Program-made: the position numbers and the translations under genes
Shown here: one piece after another, positions 41,869 through 62,927 of the stretch
How the letters are laid out: each line of letters starts with the position of its first letter
Position numbering within the stretch: position 1 is the first letter of the stretch
Source: Thermanaeromonas toyohensis ToBE
GTDB lineage: Bacteria > Bacillota > DSM-521 > Neomoorellales > Neomoorellaceae
Direction: 5' to 3'
NCBI RefSeq assembly: GCF_900176005.1
Contig: NZ_LT838272.1
Location: forward strand, 1,755,587-1,819,586
Length of the DNA stretch: 64,000 bases
The notes under the pieces: model-generated
The model's database searches: none
The model's input: the letters and a program-made list of their open reading frames with translations, nothing else
Told to the model about the DNA's origin: nothing

Positions 41869-42810
41869 TTAAAGATTAATTTTTAGAAGCCGAAGAGCAT
41901 TTTGAGCAAAGATATCTTTTAAACCCTCATCAGGGATACCTGCTTCTACTGCAGCCCGGAATTGTTCTTCAAAGTATTTATAAACCCATCCGCGGGGGAA
42001 ATGAGAAGAATCCGTACCAAAAATAATACGTTTTGCTCCAAAAAGCTCATAAAAGAGGCGAAAAAGTTCTTTAAGTGTGGGCTCAGGCCAAATATAGCGA
42101 CGCCATTCATTATTTCCCGAAGTATCAACATAAACATTATCGCAAGCCCACATGAGATGAAGAAGTTCTCTTAAATAACCACATCCAAAATGGGGCACAA
42201 CAAAAGGTATACTGGGAAATCCTTTAGCCACATCATGAAGTACTAAAGGATTAATATTTTCTGTATAAGTTATTCCTGCTTCACCGCCTAGGGGGCCAAA
42301 GTGAATAAGGACAGGAATTTTTAGCTCAGCGCAGGTTTCCCAAAGAGGATCTAAGTCAGGATGGTCAATCTTTTTTTCTAGGGCAGGGGCCAGGATTTTA
42401 TAGCCTACCATTCCCAATTCCTGGACTGCCCTTTTTAATTCTTGGGGCGCTTCCGGTGAATAAGGATCATGGTGAGCGAAGCCATAAAGGCGAGGAAAAG
42501 GCTTTAAAAGTCGACCTAGGGTTTCATTACCACCGCCGGTAACAAAGCATATCCCCAACAGGCCATAACGAATTATTTCTTCCTCATATCTTTGAACACA
42601 TTCTGCTGGTGAAGGCTGAGGTTCATCGGGAAAGGGGAAAGAATAGGTTAGCCACCATTTCTTTTGGGCTTCTTTATTCTTAAGATCCCAAACTTTAAGC
42701 TTTTCCTTTCCAAAGCGAGCACTAAAATTTTTTGCCCAACTTCCCCATAAATCTTCGCCAGTGTAAGGAAGATGAGCATGGAAATCAAATACAGGTAAAG
42801 GTAAACCCAT
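41869..42810 (-). CDS. Amidohydrolase-2 family metal-dependent hydrolase
   Basis: This 313-residue TIM-barrel amidohydrolase has the N-terminal metal motif FDFHAHLPY. Further potential ligands are in VLIHFGPLG and VVPHFGCGYL, and the terminal Asp is in IIFGTDSSHFP. This group includes decarboxylases, lactonases and other hydrolases of small carbonyl compounds, and the substrate cannot be deduced. The gene is transcribed away from the LacI regulator, with GGAAGGAG before the ATG. It may share the operators at 42897-42931 and be part of the sugar regulon. Confidence 0.85.
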   Translation of the reverse strand: MGLPLPVFDFHAHLPYTGEDLWGSWAKNFSARFGKEKLKVWDLKNKEAQKKWWLTYSFPFPDEPQPSPAECVQRYEEEIIRYGLLGICFVTGGGNETLGRLLKPFPRLYGFAHHDPYSPEAPQELKRAVQELGMVGYKILAPALEKKIDHPDLDPLWETCAELKIPVLIHFGPLGGEAGITYTENINPLVLHDVAKGFPSIPFVVPHFGCGYLRELLHLMWACDNVYVDTSGNNEWRRYIWPEPTLKELFRLFYELFGAKRIIFGTDSSHFPRGWVYKYFEEQFRAAVEAGIPDEGLKDIFAQNALRLLKINL

Positions 42811-42896
42811 GTTTTTCCACTCCTTCCGCTAAGATTATATAATAAAATTTCAGGCTTTGGAAGAAGGAAAAATTAAAACGACGGCGAATAATTATA

Positions 42897-42931
42897 TTTG
42901 AAACGGTTCAAAGGAATGAAAACGATTTTTC
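42897..42931. promoter_or_regulatory. Tandem LacI-type operator candidates
   Basis: Two CG-centred palindromes lie between the divergent hydrolase and LacI genes. The first, TTTGAAACGGTTCAAA (42897-42912), is symmetric except for one pair. The second, TGAAAACGATTTTT (42917-42930), matches most of a catabolite-repression (cre-like) consensus. Their centres are 19 bases apart, near two helical turns. LacI-family proteins bind such CG-centred sites, so local autoregulation or CcpA control is likely. Confidence 0.6.
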
Positions 42932-42943
42932 GGAGTGGAAACA

Positions 42944-43975
42944 ATGGTAACCATAAAAGATGTGGCTAAAGCAGCAGGTGTTGCACCTTCGACTGTATCC
43001 CATGTATTAAATAAGAGCGCTCCAGTAAGCCCTCAAACAAGGGAAAAAGTATTAGCAGCTGTTAAAGCTTTGGGGTACCAGCCCAGTGCCGTTGCCCAGA
43101 GCCTTAAATTAGGGTTTAGCAAGACCATCGCCCTAATAGTACCTACCATATCTACTCCTATGTATTCCGAAATGATTGAAGGTATTGAAGAAGAGGCCAC
43201 CAATCATGGGTATAATTTAATTTTATGTCGTTCGGGCCGCGATCCCATCCGGGAGCTTATGTATTTAAAGATTTTGCGCACCAACCGAGTGGATGGAATA
43301 ATTTTGGCGGCTCCTCAAGTAAATGATCCTTGCTTAAAGGAATTAGAGAAATCCAGCCTTCCAGCGGTAATAATTGGAGGTTACCCTCCCAATAATGGAA
43401 TACCGAGCATAAAAGTTGATAACAAGGGGGGGACGTGGGCGTCGATAGAGTATCTTCTTTCGCTAGGGCATCGCAAGATAGCGTTTATTAATGGCTATTC
43501 CACTGTACCGGATAGCAAGGAACGTTTAGAGGCTATAAAGGAGTGTTTAGCCCATTACCATATTCCTTGGCGTGAAGACTATTACCGTGAAGGGGATTTT
43601 ACACGGCATTCTGGTGCTGCTTTAGCCCAAGAATTAATGGCTAGCGAAGAACCCCCGACAGCTATTTTTATCGCTTCAGATACTATGGCTATTGGAGCTA
43701 TGCAAGCCATAAAAAATATGGGATGGTCAATTCCAGAGGATGTTTCTCTTATAGGCTTTGATGATATTAAATTTTGCCAATATCTTGATCCCCCCTTGAC
43801 TACTGTAAGGCAACCAGCGTATGAAATGGGGAAAGCTGCCATGAAAGCTTTGCTTGCCCTATTTTCAGGAGAAAGGAGTGAGGCATTAAGTCGGATTTTT
43901 GAAGCTAAGTTAATTATACGAGGTTCTTGTGCCAAACCGCGGTCAAAAGATTTAGGAGAGGGGGTAGGAAAATAA
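42944..43975 (+). CDS. LacI-family transcriptional regulator
   Basis: This 343-residue LacI/GalR protein has the N-terminal helix-turn-helix TIKDVAKAAGVAPSTVSHVL, the hinge helix around PSAVAQSLK and a periplasmic-binding-protein-like sugar domain (about 60-335) ending with GFDDIKFCQYLDPPLTTVRQ. It leads the ABC transporter and glycosidase genes and should repress them without inducer. ATG 42944 has GGAG 8 bases upstream. GTG 42935 is part of that ribosome site. Confidence 0.93.
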   Translation: MVTIKDVAKAAGVAPSTVSHVLNKSAPVSPQTREKVLAAVKALGYQPSAVAQSLKLGFSKTIALIVPTISTPMYSEMIEGIEEEATNHGYNLILCRSGRDPIRELMYLKILRTNRVDGIILAAPQVNDPCLKELEKSSLPAVIIGGYPPNNGIPSIKVDNKGGTWASIEYLLSLGHRKIAFINGYSTVPDSKERLEAIKECLAHYHIPWREDYYREGDFTRHSGAALAQELMASEEPPTAIFIASDTMAIGAMQAIKNMGWSIPEDVSLIGFDDIKFCQYLDPPLTTVRQPAYEMGKAAMKALLALFSGERSEALSRIFEAKLIIRGSCAKPRSKDLGEGVGK

Positions 43976-44044
43976 TTTAGGCATGGGTTAAAGGGTAAAT
44001 TTTAATTTAAAGCCAGAAAACATAATTAGGAGGGGAGGCTTAGA

Positions 44045-45331
44045 ATGAAAAGAAGTATTAAGCTTATCATATTGGCAATAACATTTACTTTATTAAGTAT
44101 TATTGCTGGTTGCGCTAAGAGCCCTTCGCAAGCTGGTAAGCCAGAAGAAAAGCCTAAGATAACTATAGTGCATTGGCAGCATCATCATGAGGCGCGTACC
44201 CCTGTGGTCCAAGAGCTGGCTAGGGAATTTGAACAATCCCACCCCGGAGTGAGTGTGGTAGTAGAACCTATTCCTTATGATAGCTATTTCGATAAGCTTT
44301 ATACCTCTTTAGCTTCAGGTTCAGGGCCAGATACTTTTCAGATTGCTGCCACTATGGCTTTAGAGATGATAAACGGCGGCAAGCTAGCGCCTATGCCGGA
44401 TTCAATTTATACCCCTGAGCAGGTGAAAAATACTTTTTTGGCCTGGACGGTTGAACCAGGGTTTAAGGATGGCAAGTATTACGGCTTACCTACTGATGTG
44501 CAGACGCTAGTACTGTTTATAAATAATGAGATTTTTAAGTCCATAGGCGGAGATCCTCAAAATCCTCCTAAGACGTGGTCCGAAATGGAAAAGTATGCTA
44601 TAGCAGCTACTAAAAAGGATGCTTCTGGTAAAATGGTTCAGGCTGGCCTAGATACCCGGTATAAATGGGCAGTATATACAGCTTTTCTTTATCAAAATAT
44701 AGAGGGGCCTGTAGTTGATGTTTCCGCCAAGAAGGTTAATTACGACAGCCCGCAGGGGTTGGCTGCTTGGAATTTTGTACACAAGCTTATGGTACAAGAT
44801 AAGGTGGATTCACCCGAATTTATGACTGGTCAGTTTAAGTTTGAACTTAAGAAAGCTCTATTCTATATTAACCATCCTGTTACTCGGGGCCGGATAGAGA
44901 AGATGGCACCTGGCTTAGATTACAGCGTTGCCCAGCTACCCATGCCTGATGGCAAGCCTGGCAACATTACCGTTGGACATAGTTGGATGTATGTGGTAAA
45001 CAAAGACTCCAAAAATGCTAAAGTGGCATGGGAATGGGTTAAGTTTTTGGCTTCTAAAGAAGCCCAAATTAAATGGATTACTAAAGCGGGCGACTTACCT
45101 TCTATGAAAGCCTTATTAGAGGATGAAGCTTTGTGGAAAGATCCCAAAGCCCAAGTGGTGCGAGAATCCCTTAAGTACGCTAGACCGTGTCAAGAGGTAG
45201 GAGAAAATGATGTTAATAAAATCCGGAATGAAATTTGGGATAACATTGTGCTTAAAGGGATGAAAGTAGAAGAAGCGGTAAAAGAGGGGGCTCAAAAAGA
45301 AAACGCCTTAATTGCCCAGAAGCTTAAATAA
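44045..45331 (+). CDS. Extracellular sugar-binding lipoprotein (CUT1)
   Basis: This 428-residue MalE-like binding protein has a lipoprotein signal peptide with Cys in SIIAGCAKSP (near residue 23). ITIVHWQHHHEARTP is the first strand, and LASGSGPDTFQIA and VLFINNEIFKSIGGDPQNPP are typical of CUT1 binding proteins. It carries the substrate specificity of the importer at 45399-48282. AGGAGGGGAGG precedes the ATG. A GC-rich hairpin follows the stop codon. Confidence 0.92.
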   Translation: MKRSIKLIILAITFTLLSIIAGCAKSPSQAGKPEEKPKITIVHWQHHHEARTPVVQELAREFEQSHPGVSVVVEPIPYDSYFDKLYTSLASGSGPDTFQIAATMALEMINGGKLAPMPDSIYTPEQVKNTFLAWTVEPGFKDGKYYGLPTDVQTLVLFINNEIFKSIGGDPQNPPKTWSEMEKYAIAATKKDASGKMVQAGLDTRYKWAVYTAFLYQNIEGPVVDVSAKKVNYDSPQGLAAWNFVHKLMVQDKVDSPEFMTGQFKFELKKALFYINHPVTRGRIEKMAPGLDYSVAQLPMPDGKPGNITVGHSWMYVVNKDSKNAKVAWEWVKFLASKEAQIKWITKAGDLPSMKALLEDEALWKDPKAQVVRESLKYARPCQEVGENDVNKIRNEIWDNIVLKGMKVEEAVKEGAQKENALIAQKLK

Positions 45332-45343
45332 AAAACAGTTTAA

Positions 45344-45376
45344 TAGCAGCTGGCGCGCTACGTGCGCTGGCTGCTA
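45344..45376 (+). other. Intercistronic hairpin after the binding-protein gene
   Basis: A nearly symmetric 15-bp inverted repeat (TAGCAGC...GCTGCTA outer arms, GGCGCGC/GTGCGC inner arms) with a 3-nt loop lies between the binding-protein and permease genes. No T-tract follows. Such hairpins protect upstream mRNA and give excess binding protein in mal-type operons. Confidence 0.65.
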
Positions 45377-45398
45377 CCTTAGTTTGGAGGAGCAAAAA

Positions 45399-46301
45399 AT
45401 GGGTGCTTCTAGAAGACAAATTATATGGGCTATTTTCTTTGTATTTCCTGCTCTTTTCCTTTTCATATTTACTGTACTTTATCCCCTTCTCGAAGTAGTC
45501 CGCCTTAGCCTTTACGAGTGGCGGATGGTCGGTAAAGGTCCTACTTTTGTAGGGCTACAGAATTATATAACTACTTTTCATGATCCTCTATTTTGGCAAG
45601 CGGTCAAAGTAACTGTGATTTGGACTTTAGGGGTAGTACCAGCCATTATTGTATTAGGTTTAGGAACTGCTTTTTTACTTAATATGAAAGCTCTTAAATT
45701 GAAAGGGGTTTTTCGCACCATTTATTTTATTCCTGTTGTTACTAATATGGTGGCTTCCGCCTTTGTTTGGAGATGGCTTTTTGAGCCTACTAATGGGGTT
45801 GTCAATTACTTCTTGGGAGTTTTAGGTTTACCCCAACCGGGCTGGTTAGCGAGCACTAGATATGCTTTACCTGCCATGATGGTGGTGGGGGTTTGGAAAC
45901 AGATCGGGTTTTCTATGGTAGTTTTTTTGGCGGGGCTTCAAACTATTCCCCAAACTATGTATGAGGCAGCAGCTATTGATGGAGCCACCAGGTGGAAGAC
46001 CTTTTGGTCTATTACTTTACCCCTTTTAAATCCTGCCATAGTATTTAACGCTATTATCCTAGTGATCAATGCCTTTAGAGTTTTTACCATACCTTACGTC
46101 ATGGCCTGTGGAGGGTTTACTTATGGCCAGCCAGGAGGGCCACTGGATAGTACAAGAGTATTTGTGATTCATATTTATGATCTGGCTTTTAGGCGCGGGG
46201 AATTTGGCTATGCTTCTGCTAGCGCGGTAATACTTTTGGTAGTAATTATGTGCTTAACTTTACTTCAGTTTAAAGTTCTTGAACGCCGGATCGAATATTA
46301 A
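45399..46301 (+). CDS. CUT1 sugar ABC transporter permease (MalF type)
   Basis: This is a 300-residue permease with six hydrophobic segments and the EAA loop YEAAAIDGATRWKTFWSITLP. ATG 45399 follows TTTGGAGGAG at a good distance. An earlier in-frame start at 45312 would translate through the intercistronic hairpin and add an unconserved leader. It forms the channel with the subunit encoded at 46332. Confidence 0.93.
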   Translation: MGASRRQIIWAIFFVFPALFLFIFTVLYPLLEVVRLSLYEWRMVGKGPTFVGLQNYITTFHDPLFWQAVKVTVIWTLGVVPAIIVLGLGTAFLLNMKALKLKGVFRTIYFIPVVTNMVASAFVWRWLFEPTNGVVNYFLGVLGLPQPGWLASTRYALPAMMVVGVWKQIGFSMVVFLAGLQTIPQTMYEAAAIDGATRWKTFWSITLPLLNPAIVFNAIILVINAFRVFTIPYVMACGGFTYGQPGGPLDSTRVFVIHIYDLAFRRGEFGYASASAVILLVVIMCLTLLQFKVLERRIEY

Positions 46302-46331
46302 AGTGAAAACTGGAAAAAAGAGGTGCCTTTT

Positions 46332-47159
46332 ATGCACAAGTATACACCCAAAGGGGAGTTAATATTAGCCTATGCTATTTTACTTTTAGGTTCCATCATT
46401 ATGCTATTACCCTTAGCTTGGATGACTTCAGCAGCTTTTAAGCCCTTAAGCGAGATAATCCAAGTGCCTCCCACCTGGATCCCTCGCCATTTTACTTTAG
46501 ATAACTTCAAAGAAGCCTTAACTCAGTTTCCCATATTACGGTATCTTGGGAACAGCCTTCTTACAACCAGTATTATTGTAGTTGGAGTGTTAATTACTAG
46601 CACCATGGCAGGATATGCTTTAACCAAACTAAACTGGCCCCTTAGGGATACATTATTTATTGTGTTTTTATCCGCTTTAATGATTCCTCTTCAAGTACGC
46701 ATGATCCCTCTTTATCGAATAGCTATGAACTTACATTTAATCGATACTTATACAGGGGTAATTTTCCCTTGGCTTTTTGATGCTTTAGGTATTTTTCTTA
46801 TGCGGCAATTTATTGCCAGTATACCCGATGAGTTAATTGATGCTGCGCGCATTGATGGGGCTTCAGAAGGGAGTATTCTAATACGGATAGTGCTCCCTAA
46901 TATCAAACCTGCCTTGTCGGCTTTAGCCATTTTTACTTTCTCTTGGGCATGGGATGAATTTTTATGGCCTTTACTAATTTGTAGTTCAGATGCTACTAGA
47001 ACTCTTCCTGTGGGGCTTCAATATTTTTCAGAACAATACGGGCTAAATATCCATTGGCAGATGGCAGGCGCTCTTCTAGCTGTGGCTCCAGTTTTGGTCG
47101 TATTTCTTTTCATGCAGCGTCAATTTATAGAAGGCGTTACTTTGACTGGCATGAAATAA
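46332..47159 (+). CDS. CUT1 sugar ABC transporter permease (MalG type)
   Basis: This 275-residue permease has six transmembrane segments and the EAA loop DAARIDGASEGSILIRIVLP. The C-terminal FMQRQFIEGVTLTGMK is typical of MalG-type subunits. ATG 46332 is preferred, because GTG 46323 lies within the GAGGTG ribosome site. Partner of the permease at 45399. Confidence 0.93.
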   Translation: MHKYTPKGELILAYAILLLGSIIMLLPLAWMTSAAFKPLSEIIQVPPTWIPRHFTLDNFKEALTQFPILRYLGNSLLTTSIIVVGVLITSTMAGYALTKLNWPLRDTLFIVFLSALMIPLQVRMIPLYRIAMNLHLIDTYTGVIFPWLFDALGIFLMRQFIASIPDELIDAARIDGASEGSILIRIVLPNIKPALSALAIFTFSWAWDEFLWPLLICSSDATRTLPVGLQYFSEQYGLNIHWQMAGALLAVAPVLVVFLFMQRQFIEGVTLTGMK

Positions 47160-47184
47160 GCGAAAGCCTTAAGGAGGAGTAAAA

Positions 47185-48282
47185 ATGGCAAGTGTTATCT
47201 TAAGGAACGTCTGGAAGAAATTTGGGCAAGTGATAGCCGTAAGGGACTTTAACCTAGAAATAAAGGACGGCGAATTTATAGTCTTAGTAGGGCCTTCAGG
47301 CTGCGGCAAGACCACCACTTTACGCATGGTAGCAGGATTAGAAGATATCACCCAAGGAGAAATATACATTGGCGACCGGCTAGTAAACGACGTACCGCCC
47401 AAAGACCGGGACATAGCCATGGTCTTTCAAAACTACGCACTTTACCCCCACATGAACGTATATGACAACATGGCCTTTGGGCTAAAAATGAGGAAAGTGC
47501 CCAAACAAGAGATAAAGAGAAGAGTAGAGGAAGCGGCTAAACTTTTAGGGATAGAACATTTACTTACCAGGAAACCCAAGGAGCTATCTGGTGGGCAGAG
47601 GCAGCGGGTAGCCTTGGGGAGAGCCATAGTGCGGGAACCCAAAGTATTTTTAATGGACGAACCTCTATCCAACCTAGACGCAAAGCTTCGGGTACAGATG
47701 CGGGCGGAGCTAACGAAACTACAGCAGAAACTAGGGGTAACGACCATTTATGTCACTCACGACCAAGTAGAGGCCATGACCATGGGTCACCGGATAGTAG
47801 TAATGAGGGACGGTATTATTCAACAGATAGACACACCATTAGGGTTATATGAGAGGCCGGCCAATTTATTTGTAGCGGGGTTTATAGGCTCACCGCCCAT
47901 GAATTTTTTGCCGGTTATGCTGGAGGAGGAGCAGGGGGTTTTAAGAGTTAAGGGAGAGGGTTTTAGCTTTCCGCTTGCGGAAGATATGGGGAGGAGGCTT
48001 AAGGCTCCTAGGAAGGAAGTAGTTTTGGGCTTACGGCCAGAGGATATAACGGTGGAGCACAGGTTAAGGGAAGCACATCCTGAGTGGGTATACAGGGTGA
48101 AGGTGGAAGTAGTGGAGCCTTTAGGGGCGGAGGGGCTAGTATACTTTAGCCTAGGGGGGCAGCAAGTAGTGGCCAGGCTTTCGGGTTCTAGCCTGCCTAA
48201 GGTAGGGGAGGAAGTGGCGCTGGTATTCAACTTAAACCGTGCCCATTTCTTTGATAAGGAATCGGGAAAGGCGGTGGCTTAA
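47185..48282 (+). CDS. CUT1 sugar ABC transporter ATP-binding protein (MsmX/UgpC type)
   Basis: This 365-residue ATPase is closely similar to the one at 16017-17153. It has Walker A GPSGCGKTT, signature LSGGQRQRVALGRAIV, Walker B VFLMDEPLSNLDAKLR, YVTHDQVEAMTMG and a C-terminal TOBE domain starting LGLRPEDITVEH. AAGGAGGAG precedes the ATG. It energises the importer at 44045-47159. It is also the nearest ATPase to the third importer (55854-58985), which has none. Confidence 0.94.
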   Translation: MASVILRNVWKKFGQVIAVRDFNLEIKDGEFIVLVGPSGCGKTTTLRMVAGLEDITQGEIYIGDRLVNDVPPKDRDIAMVFQNYALYPHMNVYDNMAFGLKMRKVPKQEIKRRVEEAAKLLGIEHLLTRKPKELSGGQRQRVALGRAIVREPKVFLMDEPLSNLDAKLRVQMRAELTKLQQKLGVTTIYVTHDQVEAMTMGHRIVVMRDGIIQQIDTPLGLYERPANLFVAGFIGSPPMNFLPVMLEEEQGVLRVKGEGFSFPLAEDMGRRLKAPRKEVVLGLRPEDITVEHRLREAHPEWVYRVKVEVVEPLGAEGLVYFSLGGQQVVARLSGSSLPKVGEEVALVFNLNRAHFFDKESGKAVA

Positions 48283-48335
48283 AAATAAAGGTCCATTTTA
48301 TTAATTAGCTATAACGTAGAAAGGGTGGAGCTTAG

Positions 48336-50276
48336 GTGCCTAAGCAGAATATCGTTACTGTTCCGGAAGAAGAAAAGGATAAAGAAAAATATTTTGCTTT
48401 AGCTAATGAATATGTAGCCTTACCAGAAATCAGAGCGCGAGATGCCGCTATATTAAGTGTTAATGCACTTTTATATTCAGCCCGAGGCCTTATAGAACTA
48501 ACTGGCTGCCCTGGAGGGCAAAGTAAAACAAGAGAGCCGCTATTAACCCCTTATCTTAAATATATGGGGAAACCTATTTGCCTGGAAGAAGTAACCTCTA
48601 ATACTCTCTTAGAACATTGGATCCCTACATTTAAAGGAACTTATGAAGGTATAGAGTTCACTTTAATTTATTTTACCCCTCCTGGTTATCGCGGGTTTGT
48701 GGTCCTCTGGGAATTGAGCAATAGTTCCCCAGAAGTACTAGCGCTTGAAGCGGGATTAGCTGGTAAAGTCGGTACTTCTTATTTGCATATTTTTCATCGC
48801 CAGCCTTTAGAAGGGGTTCGAGGACTTAGGTTTTACCCTTGGACTAGAAGCATAGTTGTAGAAGTTGTGGCTGGATTGCCAACTCTGGCTATGGCTATAA
48901 AGTCATGTCCTGAAGCTAACGTTATCCACGACATAGAAAAGAAAGATGATTTTGCCGTCCGAGTAGATAATGACTCAGATACCTTACTGCCTTTTACAGT
49001 AGGATATAATTTAACTTTATGCCCCAAAGAAAAGAAGCAGCTAGCTTTTTACCTAACTTTTGCTACTGAAGCTGATGGGGCAGCTACGGCTGGGGTAGAT
49101 ATGGCTCGCCATGGGGTAGAAGTTCTTTGGGAGTTGACTGTTAACCACCTTAAGGCTATGAAGCGCAAAATCCATGATCCAAAGCTAGAACGGATTTTTC
49201 ACCAGAACTTGTTCTTCAATTATTTTTTTGCGCGAGGCCGTACCTTGGATACTGATCAGGTAGTATTAGTAACTTCTCGCAGTCCTAGGTATTACGTAAG
49301 TGCTGCTCACTGGACGCGTGATACTTTATTATGGAGTTTCCCAGGGCTTTTAATTGCAGATGTCCATGCCGCACGTGAAACCTTATTAACAGCTTTTGAT
49401 TTATATACTAAAAACCCTGGCATCCATGCCCTTTATATTGATGGGGGGATACTTTATCCTGGGTTTGAGTTAGATGAACTAGCAGCCTTTTTGGTAGCTT
49501 TGGAACGATATTGGGAAATGACAGGGGATGCTTCTATTCTTTCGGAAAAAGTAGTTCGCCAAGGTATAGCGAGGGTGGAAAAAAAGCTTAAAGAAGTTCG
49601 CCATCCCGAGCTAGCCCTTTATCAAACTTTTCTCCTTCCTTCAGATGATCCTGCTCAATATCCCTATGTAACCTATGATAATGTTCTAGTTTGGCGTGGT
49701 TTGCGCTTTTTAGCCCATCTAAAAAGGTGGGAACAAGAAGAGGAAAAAGCCCAGGAGTTTGAGCAGGAAGCGGCAGAGCTAAAGGAAAATTTGTATCGTT
49801 ATGCAGTGGTTCCTGGTCCTTATGGACCTATGTTTGCCTGGGCTTTCGAACTGGATGGTCAGTATGTACTTTATGATGAACCTCCTGGAAGTTTAGGGTT
49901 ATTGGCTTATTACGGTTTTTGTTCCCTAGAAGATCCTGTTTTCCTAAATACGGTAAGGTGGATAAATAGTAGCTCTAATCCCTATTGGATTTCCGAAGGT
50001 TCCTTTGCTGCTCCCGCTTGCCCCCATTCATGCCACCCCTGGGTGTTAGCTTTAGCTAATGAATTAATACTGGGAAACTCCCGACAGATCACCCTAGATA
50101 AGATAGCCCGAGCCCCTATGGATAATGGATATGCTTGCGAGACTATAGATCGGTTTACGGGGGAGGTGCGTACAGGTGCTGCTTTTGCCACTTGTGCTGG
50201 TTGGCTGGTAGCTTCCCTTTGGGAGGCCCTTGGGAAACCTTCTTTATTAGGGGAGGTGATGGGAGAAAGAGGATAA
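48336..50276 (+). CDS. Glycoside hydrolase, (alpha/alpha)6-barrel, GH125-like
   Basis: This is a 646-residue protein without a signal peptide. Residues 1-260 form a beta-rich N-terminal domain. The remainder looks like a six-hairpin glycosidase barrel, with AHWTRDTLLWSFPGLL and YVTYDNVLVWRGL as likely active-site strands. The late segment SLGLLAYYGFCSLEDPVF with NPYW resembles family 125 alpha-mannosidases, but that similarity is from memory and weak. It probably hydrolyses an oligosaccharide imported by the preceding transporter. GTG start after GGGTGGAG. Confidence 0.65.
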   Translation: MPKQNIVTVPEEEKDKEKYFALANEYVALPEIRARDAAILSVNALLYSARGLIELTGCPGGQSKTREPLLTPYLKYMGKPICLEEVTSNTLLEHWIPTFKGTYEGIEFTLIYFTPPGYRGFVVLWELSNSSPEVLALEAGLAGKVGTSYLHIFHRQPLEGVRGLRFYPWTRSIVVEVVAGLPTLAMAIKSCPEANVIHDIEKKDDFAVRVDNDSDTLLPFTVGYNLTLCPKEKKQLAFYLTFATEADGAATAGVDMARHGVEVLWELTVNHLKAMKRKIHDPKLERIFHQNLFFNYFFARGRTLDTDQVVLVTSRSPRYYVSAAHWTRDTLLWSFPGLLIADVHAARETLLTAFDLYTKNPGIHALYIDGGILYPGFELDELAAFLVALERYWEMTGDASILSEKVVRQGIARVEKKLKEVRHPELALYQTFLLPSDDPAQYPYVTYDNVLVWRGLRFLAHLKRWEQEEEKAQEFEQEAAELKENLYRYAVVPGPYGPMFAWAFELDGQYVLYDEPPGSLGLLAYYGFCSLEDPVFLNTVRWINSSSNPYWISEGSFAAPACPHSCHPWVLALANELILGNSRQITLDKIARAPMDNGYACETIDRFTGEVRTGAAFATCAGWLVASLWEALGKPSLLGEVMGERG

Positions 50277-50338
50277 ATTATTAAATTACCTTATCTTAGG
50301 GTATCTCCAGCTAAAATTTGGGAAAGGAGGCTAGGATT

Positions 50339-51427
50339 ATGAGACGGTTAAGTGTACTAATATGTTCTTTAATGTTATTATTTGTTCTTTTATTGCCGGG
50401 AGCTTCCAAAAGTAAGGCAGCTAGTCAATCCTTTCAAGTAGTAGCAGTCCAGCATAAATGGAATCCGGAAGTAGATTATGCTTCTCCTGATGCTTTTAAG
50501 GCCAAGATAGATAGTATAATGCAGGATGTAATGGGTAAGGTAGACCCTAATATCCCTACATTAGTAACTTTTCCTGAACATATAGGTTTACCTATGCTTT
50601 TTATCGATAATGATATTGATATTCTTCGTAGTGCTACTACTTTTGCGGAGGCCATACAAAATTTAATCAAAAGGCATTTTGCTGCTGTAAGCGCTTTTCG
50701 CCTATATTATGGAGTTGATTGGGTAAGGGCTCTCTTTCTTGAACGAAGCGGTGTAATGGCTAAAGCCTATTTGAACACTTTCAAAGAGATGGCCGCTAAA
50801 TATGGGGTATACTTAGTAGCCGGGTCTATTCCAATGAGAGCTGTAAATGAAGATGGGACTTTGGTTAAAGATGACAATACTGTGTATAATCTTTCTTATT
50901 TCTTTGGGCCGGATGGACATTTAATTGGTTATCAGAAAAAAGTTAATTTAGTTCCTACCGAGCAATATAAAGATGAAAATGGAAACTATGGATTGGATCT
51001 TAATGCAGGCACTTTAGAGGAATTAAAAGTGTTTTCTACTCCTTTTGGCAATGTTGCTATAGCCATTTGTTATGATGCCTTTCATTACAAAGTAATATGG
51101 GAGCTGGTTAAAAAAGGGGGAGAAATACTTGTTATGCCTTCTGCTAACCCCAAGTTATGGACTAAAGAACAGCAGTCAGATTGGTTAAACAGTGCATGGT
51201 TAGCTACCCGGCATCCTTATGGTTTGAAATGGTTTGCGAACCCCATGATGGTAGGTCCCCTGAAAGATATTACATTTGAAGGCCAATCATCTCTAGGTGT
51301 TAATTGGGTGATAGCCCCTGAAGGACCTAAGATGAATTATATGGATTTAGATCCTATAACTGGTTTTCTTTCTATTGCACCTTCTAAGGATCAATATGAA
51401 ATAGTTGAAACCCGCATATCTAGGTAA
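50339..51427 (+). CDS. Exported carbon-nitrogen hydrolase (nitrilase superfamily)
   Basis: This 362-residue protein has a clear Sec signal peptide (hydrophobic core LSVLICSLMLLFVLLLPG, likely cleavage after SKA near residue 28). The mature part is a nitrilase-fold enzyme with the catalytic triad Glu80 (VTFPEHIG), Lys201 (YQKKVNLVP) and Cys244 (AIAICYDAF). Nitrilase-superfamily amidases are normally cytoplasmic, so export is unusual. It may remove an amide or acyl group from an extracellular glycan or peptide. ATG 50339 has AAGGAGG upstream. A perfect 14-bp hairpin follows the gene. Confidence 0.8.
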   Translation: MRRLSVLICSLMLLFVLLLPGASKSKAASQSFQVVAVQHKWNPEVDYASPDAFKAKIDSIMQDVMGKVDPNIPTLVTFPEHIGLPMLFIDNDIDILRSATTFAEAIQNLIKRHFAAVSAFRLYYGVDWVRALFLERSGVMAKAYLNTFKEMAAKYGVYLVAGSIPMRAVNEDGTLVKDDNTVYNLSYFFGPDGHLIGYQKKVNLVPTEQYKDENGNYGLDLNAGTLEELKVFSTPFGNVAIAICYDAFHYKVIWELVKKGGEILVMPSANPKLWTKEQQSDWLNSAWLATRHPYGLKWFANPMMVGPLKDITFEGQSSLGVNWVIAPEGPKMNYMDLDPITGFLSIAPSKDQYEIVETRISR

Positions 51428-51444: not shown

Positions 51445-51494
51445 GGCGATGCTGGCGGGCTCTAATAAAAGCTCAGTGTTCCGCCAGCATCGCC
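51445..51494 (+). terminator. Strong hairpin after the nitrilase gene
   Basis: A perfect 14-bp inverted repeat, GGCGATGCTGGCGG (51445-51458) and CCGCCAGCATCGCC (51481-51494), has a 22-base loop and is followed by TAATTTT. It probably terminates the transcript that begins with the LacI gene or the transporter, although the T-tract is weak. Confidence 0.6.
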
Positions 51495-52622: not shown

Positions 52623-55600
52623 ATGAAAAGATACTTAAGGCTTATATTAGTTACCCTTTTAACAATTGCCTTAGTATCATTCAATATAAATATTCCTTTA
52701 ACTGCTAAAAAAATTAAAAAGGTAGAAGCAGCCACTACTCAAGTTGCCTCTTATGATATTCGTCAAGCCTCAATAGAATATGGAAGTTTATACTCGGGAA
52801 GCCCCGAGGCGTTACATGATAATGATGGTGACTACTATGCGGTTTCTTCTACCACTACTTATCCTTACCGTGTGGCATGGTATACTAAAGTTTTGTGCCA
52901 TGTAAACAAAAGTGCCATTTCTCGGCTTACCCTTACGTTTGTTGCCAAATATTCTGCTCCCACTAATGATCAATGGATTGCCTTATGGAATTTTAATACA
53001 GGCAACTGGGAAGCTATAGACCAGTCAACTACCTCTACTTCTGATGTAACACGGGTATGGACTACCACAGATCCTGCAGCTTTGGGAAGGTTTATTTCGA
53101 ATGCGGGTGAAATTTGGGTACGAGTATATAATTCCAAGGACGACGGTACTTTTATCCGATATAGCGACTGGCTCAACATTACCATTGAATATAATCCCGA
53201 AGCTCAAAATGCACAGTATACTCCTACAGCGGTTACTGCTGAGTATGGCACCATTACTTCTGGCGATTATACTTCTTTAGCTGCTCAAGATGGGATTTAT
53301 CTTGAAATGGCTTCTACTTCTACCTCTCCTTATAAGGCCGCCTGGCAAGCTAGCGCTAGTATAGATGTAAATCGCAATTATGTATCTTGTTTAACAGTCA
53401 AATATGTAGGCCATCTTTCTACTACCAGCACCAATCGCTTGTATTTATCCTTATGGAATTTTGTTACTGGAAATTGGGAAGTGGTTCGGACTTTTTGGCC
53501 TTCTACTAGCGACACCACCCAGATTTGGTCTTCTATAGATGCAGACGAGATCCAGAAATATATAAGTTCTACGGGGGAGATTAAAGTACGTCTTTATAAT
53601 TCTTCATCATCTTCTTCCTTTAGCAGGTTCTCAGACTTTCTTAACATATATATAGAATATGGTTCTGTGGGAACATTTTGCTTTGCCCATTATACTGATG
53701 TACACCAAGAGGCTACTACTAATACAAGTTTGGGATATGTTATTGATGATTTAAACCTATATGTAAAGCCTGCCTTTGTTGTAAATACTGGAGATACTGC
53801 CAACCATAGCTACCTAGCTGAATTTGACTCCTATAACAACCAGATTTCTTCCCTTCAAATACCTCGCAAAGAAGCAGCCGGAAACCATGATGTCCGTTGG
53901 TATTGCCCTAATGGCAAGGCCGATTGGCGGCAAAAAATAGGCCAACCTTTATATCAATCCTTTGATTATGCTGGAGTGCACTTTGTTGTTTTGGATACAA
54001 GCGTTTTTATGGAAAATGATGGGGCTTTGGATCCTAAAGTATTGAACTGGCTAGAACAAGATCTCGCTAGTATTGCTGGAGATACGCCGGTGGTGTTATT
54101 TGGGCATCACCCTAATCATGACGTATCAGGACTTGTTAAACTAATCTCCTTGCTGCAAGGCAAAAATGTCAAATGCTTCCTAGGTGGGCATGACCATGTA
54201 TGGGAGATCCGGTATGAAAATGGGATACCGTGGATAGGGGTAGAGGATGTAAAATACAGCATTAAATATGCGGTAATACGGGTAACACCTACCCACATTA
54301 AGATTTATAAGCGGGATCCTCAAACGCATAGTGGTACTTTATGGCTTACCTTCCCTCTAAGGAAGCTTCCGAGGACTTCTCCAGTTGTGGAAGTGACAGG
54401 CGTTGATGCCAATACAGGGAAAGTTGAGGTTAAGGTTACTGTTAATACTCCAGTGTACCCAATAATTCAAGTAGAGGCGCGGGTAGATGGTTATGGTTCG
54501 TGGGTCTCTTTAACCAAGGATGCAACTGGGGCTTGGGTAGGTAGTATTGATGTATCTACTTATACACCTCCTGTTCCGCGGGGCAGACACTTTGTGGAAG
54601 CACGAGCAAGCGATGAATATAGCAATTATTGGTTTGGATATGCTACTTACCTTTGGAGTGATGGTAATATAGCTTCTTCTTGGAGTTTTACTACAGGGGG
54701 AGCTATTCAAGCGGCACCAGCAGTATATGGAGATAAGGTATATGTGGGCTCTGCCGATGGGAAATTATATGCTCTTAATGGGTTAGATGGGACACTCCTC
54801 TGGTCTTATGCTACAGGAGGAGAGATATGTTCTACCCCGGCCATTTATGTAGGGACTAGTGGAACCTCTATAATCTTCGGTTCCGCTGATAAGTATGTCT
54901 ATTCTTTAGACGCAGCAACTGGAGGGTTAAAATGGAGTTATCTAACAGGAGGGGCGGTACTTTCTTCACCCTTGTGTTATGGAACTTATGTGTACGTAGG
55001 TTCGGGTGATGGGAAGATATATTGCTTAAATGCTGAAACAGGAGGTCTAAAGTGGGCTTATCAGACAGGTGGCCTTATGCGGCAACGGCCCTGGATAGAA
55101 AATGGTATCCTATATGCAATAGTTCGGGACAATGATATGTGGTACGCCCTAGATGCTTCTACGGGGGCCCTTGTATGGAAGACCAGTGCCAATGCTGATA
55201 CTTACATGCCTGTTTGTGATAATGCTCCTGTGGTGGCAGCAGGTAAAGTATGGGTAGTAAAACCGGATTACACTTTTAGCGCTTTAGATGCAAATAGCGG
55301 CCAGATCGTCTGGACAGAAAATACGCCTGATGAATTTTCTAACCGTGGACCAGCAACTGATGGCCAGCGAGTATTTATAAATGCTCGTTCAGATACCGTG
55401 TATTGCTTTGATGGCCAGTCAGGTAATGTAATATGGACACGCGCTTTAGCTTCTAGCACAGAAGATGTACAACAGAAACAAATTAATTCAGCCTTGGTAT
55501 ATCAAAATGGCCGTCTTTACCGGATAGCTGAGCGCGGCCGGCTTACAGTGATAGATAGTGTTACAGGAGAAGTGAAATTTATCTATGATTTAGCTGATTT

Positions 55601-55706
55601 GCCCGAAAGAAACTTCTGGTCTACTCCAGCTGTAGATAGTAAGGGCTTTTACGTTGGGGGGTTAGACGGTAAAGTATATGGAATTAGATGGGCTGTGGCC
55701 CCATAA
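52623..55706 (+). CDS. Exported metallophosphoesterase with tandem beta domains and PQQ-like propeller
   Basis: This is a 1027-residue protein with a signal peptide (cleavage near VEAA, residue 37). Two similar domains of about 145 residues (46-190 and 204-346) both end in RxSDxLNIxIEY. A calcineurin-like phosphoesterase (352-560) has the full metal motif set: Asp359/His361, Gly-Asp 390-391, GNHD 420-423, GHH 494-496 and GGHDH 521-525. An Ig-like region (585-675) and a beta-propeller of PQQ-type repeats (686-1022, for example VYVGSADGKLYALNG) follow. No anchor motif is visible. The substrate is unknown; an extracellular phosphate or phosphodiester on a glycan or nucleotide is possible. Confidence 0.82.
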   Translation: MKRYLRLILVTLLTIALVSFNINIPLTAKKIKKVEAATTQVASYDIRQASIEYGSLYSGSPEALHDNDGDYYAVSSTTTYPYRVAWYTKVLCHVNKSAISRLTLTFVAKYSAPTNDQWIALWNFNTGNWEAIDQSTTSTSDVTRVWTTTDPAALGRFISNAGEIWVRVYNSKDDGTFIRYSDWLNITIEYNPEAQNAQYTPTAVTAEYGTITSGDYTSLAAQDGIYLEMASTSTSPYKAAWQASASIDVNRNYVSCLTVKYVGHLSTTSTNRLYLSLWNFVTGNWEVVRTFWPSTSDTTQIWSSIDADEIQKYISSTGEIKVRLYNSSSSSSFSRFSDFLNIYIEYGSVGTFCFAHYTDVHQEATTNTSLGYVIDDLNLYVKPAFVVNTGDTANHSYLAEFDSYNNQISSLQIPRKEAAGNHDVRWYCPNGKADWRQKIGQPLYQSFDYAGVHFVVLDTSVFMENDGALDPKVLNWLEQDLASIAGDTPVVLFGHHPNHDVSGLVKLISLLQGKNVKCFLGGHDHVWEIRYENGIPWIGVEDVKYSIKYAVIRVTPTHIKIYKRDPQTHSGTLWLTFPLRKLPRTSPVVEVTGVDANTGKVEVKVTVNTPVYPIIQVEARVDGYGSWVSLTKDATGAWVGSIDVSTYTPPVPRGRHFVEARASDEYSNYWFGYATYLWSDGNIASSWSFTTGGAIQAAPAVYGDKVYVGSADGKLYALNGLDGTLLWSYATGGEICSTPAIYVGTSGTSIIFGSADKYVYSLDAATGGLKWSYLTGGAVLSSPLCYGTYVYVGSGDGKIYCLNAETGGLKWAYQTGGLMRQRPWIENGILYAIVRDNDMWYALDASTGALVWKTSANADTYMPVCDNAPVVAAGKVWVVKPDYTFSALDANSGQIVWTENTPDEFSNRGPATDGQRVFINARSDTVYCFDGQSGNVIWTRALASSTEDVQQKQINSALVYQNGRLYRIAERGRLTVIDSVTGEVKFIYDLADLPERNFWSTPAVDSKGFYVGGLDGKVYGIRWAVAP

Positions 55707-55853: not shown

Positions 55854-56756
55854 TTGAAAAAAGAGTTATTCCTGCGATTAATTGGCCGTCATGAGGAAAA
55901 ACTAGCCGGTATAAGCTTAGTCTTACCTAATTTAATGGGCTTTGGGGTATTCGTTTTCTTCGCTTGCGGGATGTCGTTATGGCTTTCGTTTCATGATTGG
56001 GATATGTTAACTCCTGCTAGGTTTGTGGGATTTAAGAATTACATTGCTATTATCGAAGGCGATCCTCATTTTCGTAAGGTTCTATACAATACTTTATATA
56101 TTGCTTTAATCTATATCCCCTTTACATTAATAACTTCTCTTATATTGGCAGTATTCCTTAATCAAAAACTTAGGTGGATAGCAATTTTTAGGGCCGCGTA
56201 TTATATGCCTGCAGTTACGGCTACTGTAGCTATCAGCGTAGTTTGGATGTTTCTATTTAACCCCGAGTATGGGCCTATAAATTTGGTGTTGGGCAGTTTA
56301 GGGTTACCTAAACCAGGTTGGCTTTTCAGTGTGGAGTGGGCTAAACCCGCAGTGGCTATAGTACGCACATGGCAAAGCGCAGGCTATTATATGTTAATGT
56401 TCCTGGCTGGATTACAAGCCATCCCTCATGAACTATATGAGGCAGCCTCTATCGACGGGGCTTCAGGATGGGTAAAATTCTGGCGTATAACACTTCCTAT
56501 GCTTTCACCCACTACATTTTTGGTATTAGTCCTGTTGGTAATAGATGGCTTAAACGTATTTGAGGCTGTGTACGTGATGACTCGAGGAGGGCCAGCGGGA
56601 AGCACAGAGACATGGCTTTATTACATCTATAGTAAAGCTTTTGAGGGATTTAAGATGGGTTATGCAACTGCTTTAGCTTGGCTTCTTTTTGTTGCCCTAT
56701 TCCTTCTAACCATTTTCCAGTTCTGGCTACAACGAAAGTGGGTGTATCATGAATGA
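55854..56756 (+). CDS. CUT1 sugar ABC transporter permease (MalF type)
   Basis: This is a 300-residue permease with six hydrophobic segments and the EAA loop YEAASIDGASGWVKFWRITLP. The TTG start directly follows AGGAGG, with a second GGTGGAGG at a more usual distance. It overlaps the next permease by 4 bases (ATGA). The 147 bases before it show no gene and no clear terminator. Confidence 0.92.
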   Translation: MKKELFLRLIGRHEEKLAGISLVLPNLMGFGVFVFFACGMSLWLSFHDWDMLTPARFVGFKNYIAIIEGDPHFRKVLYNTLYIALIYIPFTLITSLILAVFLNQKLRWIAIFRAAYYMPAVTATVAISVVWMFLFNPEYGPINLVLGSLGLPKPGWLFSVEWAKPAVAIVRTWQSAGYYMLMFLAGLQAIPHELYEAASIDGASGWVKFWRITLPMLSPTTFLVLVLLVIDGLNVFEAVYVMTRGGPAGSTETWLYYIYSKAFEGFKMGYATALAWLLFVALFLLTIFQFWLQRKWVYHE

Positions 56757-57613
56757 TAGCCATAAATCGGCCTTATCAAGTAGGCGAACGTTTCTGGCGG
56801 ATTTTGACCTATATTCTTCTTGTTATTGGGGCCTTAACTACAGTAGCTCCCTTTATTTGGTCTGTCTTAGCTTCTTTTAAAACACGGGCCCAATTTGTGG
56901 CCTGGCCTCCAGTTTGGATACCGTGGCCTCCTCACTATGAGAACTATATAAAAGTATGTACCTATTTGCCTTTTGGTCGTTTTATGCTAAACTCCCTCTT
57001 TCTTTCTATTACGGTACCGACATTACAGCTAGCCTTTGCTGCACCAGCTGCTTATGCTTTTGCGCGTTTGCGGTTTCCCGGGCGAGATCTTCTATTCCTA
57101 GCTTTTTTAGGAACCATGATGATACCTGGGCATGTAACGTTAATTCCCAATTTTATCTTAGTAAAATACTTAGGATGGTTAGATACCTGGTGGGCGCTTA
57201 TAATTCCGCCCATATTTACCGGGACCAATGTATTTGGTTTGTTTCTTCTAAGACAGTATTTCCTCACTATTCCTAGAGAGCTAGAAGAAAGTGCTAGGAT
57301 TGATGGGTGCAGCTGGTTTCAAACATTCTTGCGGGTAATATTGCCCAATGCTAAGCCCGCTATAGCTACCTTCTTTATCATTGCCTTTAAAAATGAATGG
57401 AATAGCTTTATTTGGCCGTTGATCGTTATGAATTCCTATGAAAAAATGCCTATCCAGGTTGGCCTGGCGTATCTAGCTAGTAAAGACCTAATAGAGTGGG
57501 AGGTGGTGTTAGCGGGCGCAACTTTGGCTTTGATCCCTATCATTATAGTATTTATGTTTGCCCAGCGCTACTTCATAGAGAGTATGGCCCGCGCTGGGTT
57601 AGGAGGGAGGTGA
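56753..57613 (+). CDS. CUT1 sugar ABC transporter permease (MalG type)
   Basis: This is a 286-residue permease with six transmembrane segments, the EAA loop EESARIDGCSWFQTFLRVILP and the C-terminus FAQRYFIESMARAGLGG. It is translationally coupled to the preceding permease. The binding protein of this importer is encoded next. No ATPase gene is found in this cluster. Confidence 0.93.
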   Translation: MIAINRPYQVGERFWRILTYILLVIGALTTVAPFIWSVLASFKTRAQFVAWPPVWIPWPPHYENYIKVCTYLPFGRFMLNSLFLSITVPTLQLAFAAPAAYAFARLRFPGRDLLFLAFLGTMMIPGHVTLIPNFILVKYLGWLDTWWALIIPPIFTGTNVFGLFLLRQYFLTIPRELEESARIDGCSWFQTFLRVILPNAKPAIATFFIIAFKNEWNSFIWPLIVMNSYEKMPIQVGLAYLASKDLIEWEVVLAGATLALIPIIIVFMFAQRYFIESMARAGLGGR

Positions 57614-57692
57614 AGGAGGTCAGACTTGGACGAAAAGCAAATTATAAAAGCCTACAAGAGACGATAGAAAAGAAAGGAGGAACTGATTTAAG

Positions 57693-58985
57693 ATGAAAAC
57701 TTCCAAAAAGCAAATAGGGATCCTTAGTATATTAGTTTGTATTTTGCTTGTAACAGTAAGCTTTGCAGGGTGCGCTAAAAAGGCATATCCTCAAGGTCAA
57801 GCGCCTACAAAAACGGGAGAAAAAGTAAAACTAGATGTGGTTTCCTGGTGGGATATCAATAAAGAGAAGCCCCTCCAAGAAATCAAGGAAGCTTTTGAGA
57901 AGGCTCATCCTAATATTGAATTGAATTTTATCCAGGTTCCTTCCAAAGGCTACTATGATAAACTGCTTACCATGATCGCGGGTGGACAGCCTCCTGATAT
58001 AGCTATGCTAGCTATGGACCAATATCCGGCTTATGTAGAAAAGGGAGCTCTTACTTGCTTAGATAGATGGATCACGGATGACTATAAAAAGGATTTGTGG
58101 CCTGTAGCTCTGAAGATCCTAACTTATAAAGGAAGCATCTATGGCGTGCCACGCGATCTTACTTGCAATGTTATGTATTACAACAAGAAGTTATTTGACG
58201 AAGCGAAGGTACCTTATCCCAAAGAAGGTTGGACTTGGAATGACTTCTTAGATATATGTCAGAAGCTTACTAAGCGCGATGGTTCTGGAAAAGTTATACA
58301 ATGGGGATATCATTATGCAGGTTATCCCGATGCTTACTATGATTGGCTATTGCAGAACAATGGCGGTTTTGTCTCGGAAGATGGTAAGAGGTGTATATTA
58401 ACCAACCCTGAGAGCATAGAAGCCCTCCAATTCTTAGTAGATCTGAGGTATAAGTATAAAGTAGCTCCTACACCTGAAGAAGCCAAACAGTTTGGCGAAT
58501 CCTCTATTGCTCCTTTTGAGAGCGGAAAGGTGGCTATGTTTACTGGTGGTGCTTCACGGATGTTCAGTCTTACTAAAGCAGGTCTAGATTATGATGTAGC
58601 ACCTTTACCTAAGGGTAAGCGCCAGGCTACACGGGTATTTGCCATTCTTTGGGTAATGCCTAAAGGATGCAAACATCCGGAGGAAGCCTGGAAAGTTCTC
58701 TCCTTCCTTGGTGGTAAAGAAGGCCAACAGCTCGTAGTGAATACTGGTATGGGTAATAGTGCCCTTAAGTCAACTGACAATTCCAAGTTCCTAACACCGC
58801 CTCCGGCTAATAAGAAAGTGTTTATTGATAGCTTTAACTATGGTGAACCTTTCCCCATGGTTAAGAACCGCGAAGTGTGGAAGGAAATAGAACAAGGTTT
58901 AGACCTTATGTGGTTAGGGAAGCAGCCGGTTAAAGAAGCTGCAGAGGCCGTAGCTAAGAAAGTAGATATGTTGCTTAAAGAATAG
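57693..58985 (+). CDS. Extracellular sugar-binding lipoprotein (CUT1)
   Basis: This 430-residue binding protein has a lipoprotein signal peptide (Cys in VSFAGCAKKA near residue 27). VKLDVVSWWDINKEKPLQ is the first strand, and MIAGGQPPDIAMLAMDQ and VMYYNKKLFDEAKVPYPKEG are typical of CUT1 proteins. The gene order permease-permease-binding protein is the reverse of the other two importers in the window. GAAAGGAGG precedes the ATG. A strong hairpin follows the gene. Confidence 0.92.
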   Translation: MKTSKKQIGILSILVCILLVTVSFAGCAKKAYPQGQAPTKTGEKVKLDVVSWWDINKEKPLQEIKEAFEKAHPNIELNFIQVPSKGYYDKLLTMIAGGQPPDIAMLAMDQYPAYVEKGALTCLDRWITDDYKKDLWPVALKILTYKGSIYGVPRDLTCNVMYYNKKLFDEAKVPYPKEGWTWNDFLDICQKLTKRDGSGKVIQWGYHYAGYPDAYYDWLLQNNGGFVSEDGKRCILTNPESIEALQFLVDLRYKYKVAPTPEEAKQFGESSIAPFESGKVAMFTGGASRMFSLTKAGLDYDVAPLPKGKRQATRVFAILWVMPKGCKHPEEAWKVLSFLGGKEGQQLVVNTGMGNSALKSTDNSKFLTPPPANKKVFIDSFNYGEPFPMVKNREVWKEIEQGLDLMWLGKQPVKEAAEAVAKKVDMLLKE

Positions 58986-59008
58986 GGTATAAAAAGTTAA
59001 AAACTTTA

Positions 59009-59050
59009 GCACCTGCGGCAGGAGAAAAGATTAACGCCTGCCGCAGGTGC
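59009..59050 (+). other. Perfect 14-bp hairpin after the binding-protein gene
   Basis: GCACCTGCGGCAGG (59009-59022) and CCTGCCGCAGGTGC (59037-59050) form a perfect stem around a 14-base A-rich loop. No T-tract follows, so it is more likely an mRNA-stabilising or partial-termination element than a full terminator. Confidence 0.65.
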
Positions 59051-59074
59051 TGATTAAAGAGGTGAATATAAGTT

Positions 59075-60043
59075 TTGGAGCTATTCTTAGGAATAGAAGG
59101 GGGCGGGACTAATACCAGGGCAGTTTTAGCCCAGGCTGATGGCCAAATATTGGGTGTTGGATGGGGAGGGCCTTCCAATGCTTTGTTTGTTGGACGTGAA
59201 GCTGCCAGTAAAGCTATAAAGCAAGCTATAAGCCAGGCTTTGGCGCAAAAGAGGGAAAGGTTAAAGTGTAAAGTTATAGCTGCTTGTATACCAGGAGTGA
59301 ATAAAGAATTGCTCCAGCTAACCCTTAAACCGTTAATGGAATGGGAGCATCTTATTTTGTGCAGCGATACACTTTCGGCTTTACAAGCAGGGTTGGGCCC
59401 TGAAGGGGTAGGAGTTGTAGTTTCCAGCGGCACAGGTTCTTTTGCGATTGCCCGCAACAAGAAAGGCGATATAGCTGTTGTGGGAGGATGGGGTCCCCTG
59501 TTGGGGGATGAGGGAAGTGGTTATTATATAGGCTTGCTAGGGCTCAAGGCCATAATTCATGCTGCTGATGGAATAGGACCGCCCACCTGTTTAACTAGAG
59601 CAATCATTGAAAGGCTGGGATTAACTAACCCTTTGGAGCTAAGGCGGGTGGCCTATAGCGGTGTTTTAGATAGAAAGAGTATTGCGGAGTTATCCCAAGT
59701 AGTCATGGTTATGGCTAAAGAAGGGGATAAAGCGGCTTTATCTATTATAAAGAAGGCGGCATGGTGGTTGGTGGTCATGGCTCGAGCTGTGGTTAGGAAA
59801 GCTGGGCTAGAAAATGAGATACCTGTGGTATTCGTGGGAGGAGTGGCAAGGGAAAGGGTGATAGTCGAGATATTTAAGCGTTATTTAGATAAGCTTTTAC
59901 CCGGAGCAGTCTATACTCCACCCCTTTTTCCTATTGAATTGGGTTCTCTTTTGTTGGCTTATAAAGAAGGGGGTATTTCGTTAAAGGAGTCAACCTTACA
60001 CCAGGTTAAAACAACTTATAGTAGCATATTAAAAAGCATTTAG
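59075..60043 (+). CDS. BadF/BadG-family sugar kinase (N-acetylglucosamine kinase-like)
   Basis: This is a 322-residue kinase of the ASKHA fold. The ATP-binding start LGIEGGGTNTRAVL is followed by the second phosphate motif VVSSGTGSFAIARN and GGWGPLLGDEGSGYYIG, characteristic of GlcNAc-kinase-like BadF proteins. It should phosphorylate the sugar, often an amino sugar, brought in by the preceding importer. TTG start with AGAGGTG 10 bases upstream. A SIS-domain protein encoded next may act on its product. Confidence 0.88.
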   Translation: MELFLGIEGGGTNTRAVLAQADGQILGVGWGGPSNALFVGREAASKAIKQAISQALAQKRERLKCKVIAACIPGVNKELLQLTLKPLMEWEHLILCSDTLSALQAGLGPEGVGVVVSSGTGSFAIARNKKGDIAVVGGWGPLLGDEGSGYYIGLLGLKAIIHAADGIGPPTCLTRAIIERLGLTNPLELRRVAYSGVLDRKSIAELSQVVMVMAKEGDKAALSIIKKAAWWLVVMARAVVRKAGLENEIPVVFVGGVARERVIVEIFKRYLDKLLPGAVYTPPLFPIELGSLLLAYKEGGISLKESTLHQVKTTYSSILKSI

Positions 60044-60054
60044 AGGTGAATTCT

Positions 60055-60795: not shown

Positions 60796-60816
60796 TTTTA
60801 TGGAGGTAGCAAGAAT

Positions 60817-62919: not shown

Positions 62920-62927
62920 AGATTAAG

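Follow-up and report, generated by a model that had tools for sequence, protein, structure and literature searches.

A GH125-like glycosidase and a predicted exported nitrilase-fold enzyme in a CUT1 importer operon of Thermanaeromonas toyohensis

Introduction

What would an exported nitrilase-fold enzyme do in a sugar-uptake pathway? The question is raised by an operon of Thermanaeromonas toyohensis ToBE that has the layout and the importer type of CUT1 operons with a LacI regulator and an intracellular glycosidase. It differs from the ordinary ones in its last gene, which encodes a predicted exported nitrilase, and in an Amidohydro_2 gene that is conserved in the module. The original prediction, made from the sequence of the window (the whole 64,000 nucleotide stretch of contig NZ_LT838272.1 analysed here), was that the enzyme is an extracellular amidase that trims an amide, N-acyl or amidated uronic-acid group in a glycan pathway before uptake. 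This study examined the operon and its two enzymes in the window, then their relatives in a sample of Bacillota genomes.

Results

The operon and its importer

The genes run on one strand from 42935 to 51427 with intergenic gaps of about 20-70 bases, and the class of each gene was confirmed by Pfam. The first encodes a LacI-family regulator (42935-43975, plus strand; PF00356, PF13377). It is followed by a CUT1 solute-binding protein (44045-45331, plus strand; PF01547, E 2e-35), two ABC permeases (45399-46301 and 46323-47159, both plus strand; PF00528) and a MalK-type ABC ATPase (47185-48282, plus strand; PF00005, OB_MalK PF17912). The first permease starts at an ATG within a listed TTG frame. 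With an SBP_bac_1 binding protein, two BPD permeases and a MalK-type ATPase, the set is a CUT1 ABC importer, and it lies directly upstream of the glycosidase, as had been proposed. The last two genes, found where the original prediction placed them, encode a GH125-like glycosidase of 646 residues, referred to below as GH (48336-50276, plus strand; PF06824), and a nitrilase-fold enzyme of 362 residues (50339-51427, plus strand; PF00795), whose clade was named NitS. They are separated by 62 bp and share one terminator. The terminator-like hairpin that closes the operon (51445-51494, plus strand; -35.1 kcal/mol, z -6.9) is 3' of the nitrilase stop and has a T-rich tail, and 0 shuffles were equally stable.

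The Amidohydro_2 enzyme (41869-42810, minus strand; PF04909, E 1.4e-39) is encoded divergently from the LacI gene and is counted as a module member. Its homologues are found beside or near GH in L084, L095, L104, L118 and L106 (43-56% identity) and in L192 (45%). The importer genes also have counterparts in the same module elsewhere. The binding protein is 64%, 63% and 49% identical to those of L118, L192 and L104, respectively, permease 1 is 61% identical to that of L118 and 64% to that of L192, and permease 2 is 59-69% identical to those of the same two loci. Within the divergent promoter region (42896-42930) two putative LacI-type operator-like palindromes, TTTGAAACGGTTCAAA and GAAAACGATTTTTC, were read by eye.

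At 52623-55706 is a gene for a 1027 residue exported protein with a calcineurin-type phosphoesterase domain and a PQQ-type beta-propeller. A second CUT1 operon (55854-63998) lies directly downstream and includes a BadF-type kinase, a SIS protein, a DUF6259 protein (700 residues) and a GH57-like protein.

The glycosidase

GH starts at a GTG preceded by a Shine-Dalgarno-like GGGTGGAG, and no signal peptide was found by motif at its N-terminus. It matches PF06824 (GH125) with 71 bits against a curated cut-off of 23.4, with the match confined to residues 427-602 and to profile positions 206-387 of 414, which is less than the whole catalytic domain. When a profile of 32 GH sequences was compared with PDB chains, only GH125 chains were significant (2nvp, E 8.5e-24), again through the C-terminal half. 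In CpGH125 (PDB 2nvp) the reported catalytic acid and base are D220 and E393 (PMC9425025), and the GH residues aligned with them are D437 and E602. D437, D438 and E602 are invariant across the 32 sequences. GH therefore resembles the metal-independent exo-alpha-1,6-mannosidases of family GH125 in the C-terminal half of the catalytic domain and in its putative acid and base, but differs from CpGH125 in about 280 additional N-terminal residues and in leaving the first half of the profile unmatched. Because only part of the catalytic domain is matched, we felt that the enzyme is best named GH125-like, and not filed as GH125. Judged from these alignments it is homologous to that family, and its mechanism is probably inverting. 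The structure model, built from an alignment that was too shallow, reached a pLDDT of 35. In the GH tree the G035 row, a long branch with three stops read in the wrong frame, should be disregarded.

The nitrilase NitS

The listed frame of the nitrilase opens at a TTG (50318). Translation more likely begins at the ATG of position 50339, which has a ribosome site, AAAGGAGG, at a spacing of 8 nt. The protein matches PF00795 with 56.8 bits against a curated cut-off of 23.2. Counted from this ATG, the Glu80-Lys201-Cys244 triad is intact exactly as had been claimed, and E80, K201 and C244 are invariant in an alignment of 12 NitS sequences. C244 is the sole Cys of the predicted mature protein.

A Sec signal peptide had also been proposed, and by motif judgement the N-terminus has one (50339-50419, plus strand), with cleavage predicted after A27 from hydrophobicity and motif. 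It reads MRRLSVLICSLMLLFVLLLPGASKSKA followed by ASQ, and has a positive n-region with two Arg, a hydrophobic core, and a c-region with small residues at -3 and -1 in the S-K-A cleavage motif (SKA, then A). Mean Kyte-Doolittle hydrophobicity over 15 residues of the core is 3.0, versus 0.3-1.6 in signal-less relatives. The same layout is present in the NitS proteins of G340, G029 and G427. By motif, then, NitS appears to be exported and catalytically intact.

A domain search of the 362 residues found nothing beyond PF00795, and in particular no further C-terminal domain. Against NCBIfam the protein fell under every equivalog cut-off. For the alpha-beta-beta-alpha sandwich fold of the superfamily, an AlphaFold2 model from a two-sequence alignment, which is too shallow, had a pLDDT of 42. 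A weak match to Lnt (TIGR00546; 35.6 bits), like NitS a bacterial nitrilase fold with an extracytoplasmic place, raises the idea that NitS is an acyltransferase or other transferase acting on lipoproteins or cell-wall glycans, and not a catabolic hydrolase. The score is far under the cut-off of 132.9, however. Lnt is a polytopic membrane enzyme, whereas NitS has a single N-terminal hydrophobic stretch, its signal, and no transmembrane domain otherwise, and the content of the operon is catabolic. A transferase is thus very improbable, and we treat NitS below as a hydrolase.

Sister nitrilases NitA and NitB

In other genomes two nitrilase-fold genes, which may be on either strand relative to GH, usually lie beside it. 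NitB has an intact triad with the motif CMDATYFET. In NitA the triad is lost: most sequences have A, G, S, P or Q instead of Glu, all have Gln instead of Lys, and nearly all have G, S or A instead of Cys. NitA is a conserved triad-less paralogue encoded next to catalytic NitB (L084, L085, L086, L100, L110, L118 and others), and from its sequence it looks like a pseudoenzyme partner of NitB. Gene fusions join NitA to NitB in G103 (L152:8414-10624), G065 and others, and place NitB at the front of GH in G266 (L087:5821-9057).

NitS is the third clade of this group. NitS, NitB and NitA form one branch (support 99/97 and 100/99) apart from ordinary amidases; the tree took in the three other amidases of the window genome, which fall outside the branch. 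NitS shares the PF00795 domain and the Glu-Lys-Cys triad with Nit2, N-carbamoylputrescine amidase and ordinary Bacillota amidases, but differs from them in its separate, well-supported branch, its Sec signal and its NCBIfam scores.

The commonest further neighbour of GH is a GPH sugar symporter (14 loci; PF13347). A gene for a PIG-L-type deacetylase separates NitB from GH in several genomes (L090, L099, L103, L107, L108), which hints at an N-acyl amino sugar.

A glycosidase with a nitrilase-fold enzyme is also the pair expected of a pathway for nitrile glycosides, such as cyanogenic glycosides, in which the nitrilase would act on the nitrile group. The known GH125 enzymes act on alpha-mannosides, however, whereas cyanogenic glycosides are beta-glucosides, and the profiles of NitS and NitB match both amidases and nitrilases. 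We consider nitrile glycosides most improbable substrates and favour a glycoside with a hydrolysable C-N bond, probably an amide.

Distribution in Bacillota

GH was found in 59/398 Bacillota genomes, and with G403 this gave 60 genomes to examine. NitB is present in 53/60, among them G340 with a diverged copy, and lies within 8 kb of GH in 37. NitS is present in 5/7 GH genomes without a NitB match (the window genome counted) versus 2/53 with NitB. The distributions are complementary (Fisher p 7.6e-5, uncorrected for kinship, with two of the five NitS genomes sharing one family). The two genomes with both are G389, which has a broken NitS fragment only, and G340, whose NitAB is diverged. Neither NitB nor NitS was matched in G231, where the contig ends just after NitA, or in G201, where an ordinary nitrilase is a few genes off. 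GH is therefore hardly ever without a nitrilase. The original prediction had been staked on the linkage being conserved, and it does recur in other genomes.

The nitrilases are less strict. Some genomes with no GH match nevertheless have NitS (G029, G272, G317, G338 and five from a single family), and 16 sampled ones have NitAB, so neither is tied to GH alone. Signal-less NitS proteins of G359, G225 and G378 are encoded far from GH. Retention of the signal peptide in homologues, a second point on which the prediction had been staked, did not hold: about five members of the NitS clade have an N-terminal signal or anchor while the others begin directly at the catalytic domain, and by these N-termini export is not conserved across the clade.

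Within the window's own family, NitS was found in 1/18 genomes, that of the window, and GH in no other genome either, so the window copy was probably acquired. A contig scan returned only the relative with 86% identity.

Conservation of the module

The module of the window operon is found again in G427, in the order binding protein (63% identity), two permeases (64% and 69%), Amidohydro_2 (45%), GH (33%) and NitS. This NitS (L192:9962-11467) has 501 residues, a signal peptide and 63% identity over the common part, and ends in an F5/8 type C galactose-binding-type domain (PF22633, E 2e-22). GH and NitS are 2.2 kb apart in G427; the gap contains a degenerate, higher-GC stretch (L192:7799-9600) that includes a broken reading frame for a secreted protein. 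G348 has a binding protein (64%), two permeases, Amidohydro_2, GH (split by a frame break), a ROK kinase, NitA, NitB and a GPH symporter, with NitAB in the place of NitS. G201 has the binding protein (49%) and Amidohydro_2 (56%) plus GH. In G340 an 86% identical NitS lies behind a diverged resident GH. What separates the two is the remainder of a GH tail of the window type (about 98 residues, 534-631, with 51-75% identity in separate stretches), and this points to joint movement of NitS and its GH. In total, GH is linked to an exported-type NitS in four genomes (the window, G427, G340 and, as a NitS fragment, G389), two of them with remnants.

The lone NitS fragment in G389 and the GH tail in G340 make the NitS-GH island look mobile, and recombination may have put NitS behind GH as a hitch-hiker with no functional tie to the operon. 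Against this, G427 keeps the same order with a whole transporter set, the two window genes have a short gap and a common terminator, and sister nitrilases are linked to the same GH in 37 genomes with a complementary distribution. Chance placement is distinctly unlikely.

Alternatively, NitS could be a scavenging amidase unrelated to sugar, freeing a vitamin extracellularly from its amide conjugate, with its place in the operon secondary. Pantetheinase (vanin) and biotinidase are exported nitrilase-fold amidases, as NitS is predicted to be. The NitS profile weakly reaches pantetheinase chains (E 4e-6), and five genomes, all from a single family, encode a signal-less NitS beside a gene that resembles the one for the BioY biotin transporter (L042-L045, L047; PF02632 tested in L044). 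However, the BioY pairing is confined to that family and may be synteny. Vanin and biotinidase are eukaryotic and have an extra C-terminal domain missing from the window NitS, whose locus lacks vitamin genes. In G427 and G340, which have the closer of its exported relatives, NitS is encoded behind GH and not beside vitamin genes, and the G427 enzyme has a carbohydrate-binding-type domain. We regard scavenging as rather unlikely and favour a role for NitS in the sugar pathway.

Discussion

We lean towards reading the operon as a module, under LacI control, that imports and degrades a small glycoside with a nitrilase-cleavable C-N bond (probably an amide), the ABC-importer and exported-enzyme version of a conserved Bacillota module. 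Exported NitS would cut the C-N bond outside the membrane via its Cys-Glu-Lys triad, and the CUT1 importer would then take in the trimmed glycoside. In the cytoplasm, the GH125-like enzyme would use an inverting acid/base mechanism to free the sugar at the non-reducing end, and the Amidohydro_2 enzyme would act on one product. In its usual Bacillota form the module pairs GH with signal-less catalytic NitB and triad-less NitA, often with a GPH sugar symporter.

This reading is based on the genes present, the triad, the signal motif, the conserved linkage, the relationships among the clades and the complementarity of NitS and NitAB. We infer that NitS performs the same chemical step as NitB, and likewise the bond, the substrate and the order of steps. 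Systems with NitAB, many of which include a GPH symporter, would make both cuts inside, so the substrate should be small. Since the window nitrilase is predicted to be exported and is paired with a CUT1 importer, the most likely order is C-N cleavage outside, then uptake, then GH. For the window, an extracellular amidase step is consistent with an apparently exported enzyme, its intact triad, its linkage to GH and an importer, the recurrence of that linkage and the F5/8 type C domain in G427. The corresponding nitrilases are signal-less in most GH genomes, so the step is not inherently extracellular, and the original prediction is partly supported.

A broader possibility, which we put forward tentatively, is that Bacillota widely share an undescribed pathway for alpha-glycosides that bear nitrogen. 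In it the GH125-like enzyme and NitA/NitB would work intracellularly, and some lineages would have swapped the pair for one exported nitrilase before an ABC importer, which would shift C-N cleavage to the outside. The conserved GH-nitrilase module is apparently undescribed, a provisional statement: a literature search for GH125 paired with a nitrilase or carbon-nitrogen hydrolase found nothing, with most subscription journals outside its coverage.

A glycosyl-glycerate or its amide (mannosylglyceramide) was considered as the substrate, prompted by a glycerate kinase gene that adjoins the module in both G389 and G427. Most members of that genus have the kinase as a resident gene, elsewhere with a permease (G421, G422, G428) or RidA/TnaA-like genes (G262, G426) after it, and it is not near GH in other genomes. 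It therefore marks an insertion site, and the clue was rejected.

With its small genes and a regulator of its own, the locus allows a direct search for the substrate. If the reading is correct, a C-N hydrolysis step, extracellular in some bacteria, would be added to sugar-uptake pathways, and the pair of catalytic and triad-less nitrilases would provide a further example of a conserved pseudoenzyme partner, one that is new. It would also mean that many Bacillota eat a class of nitrogen-bearing glycosides that is so far unnamed.
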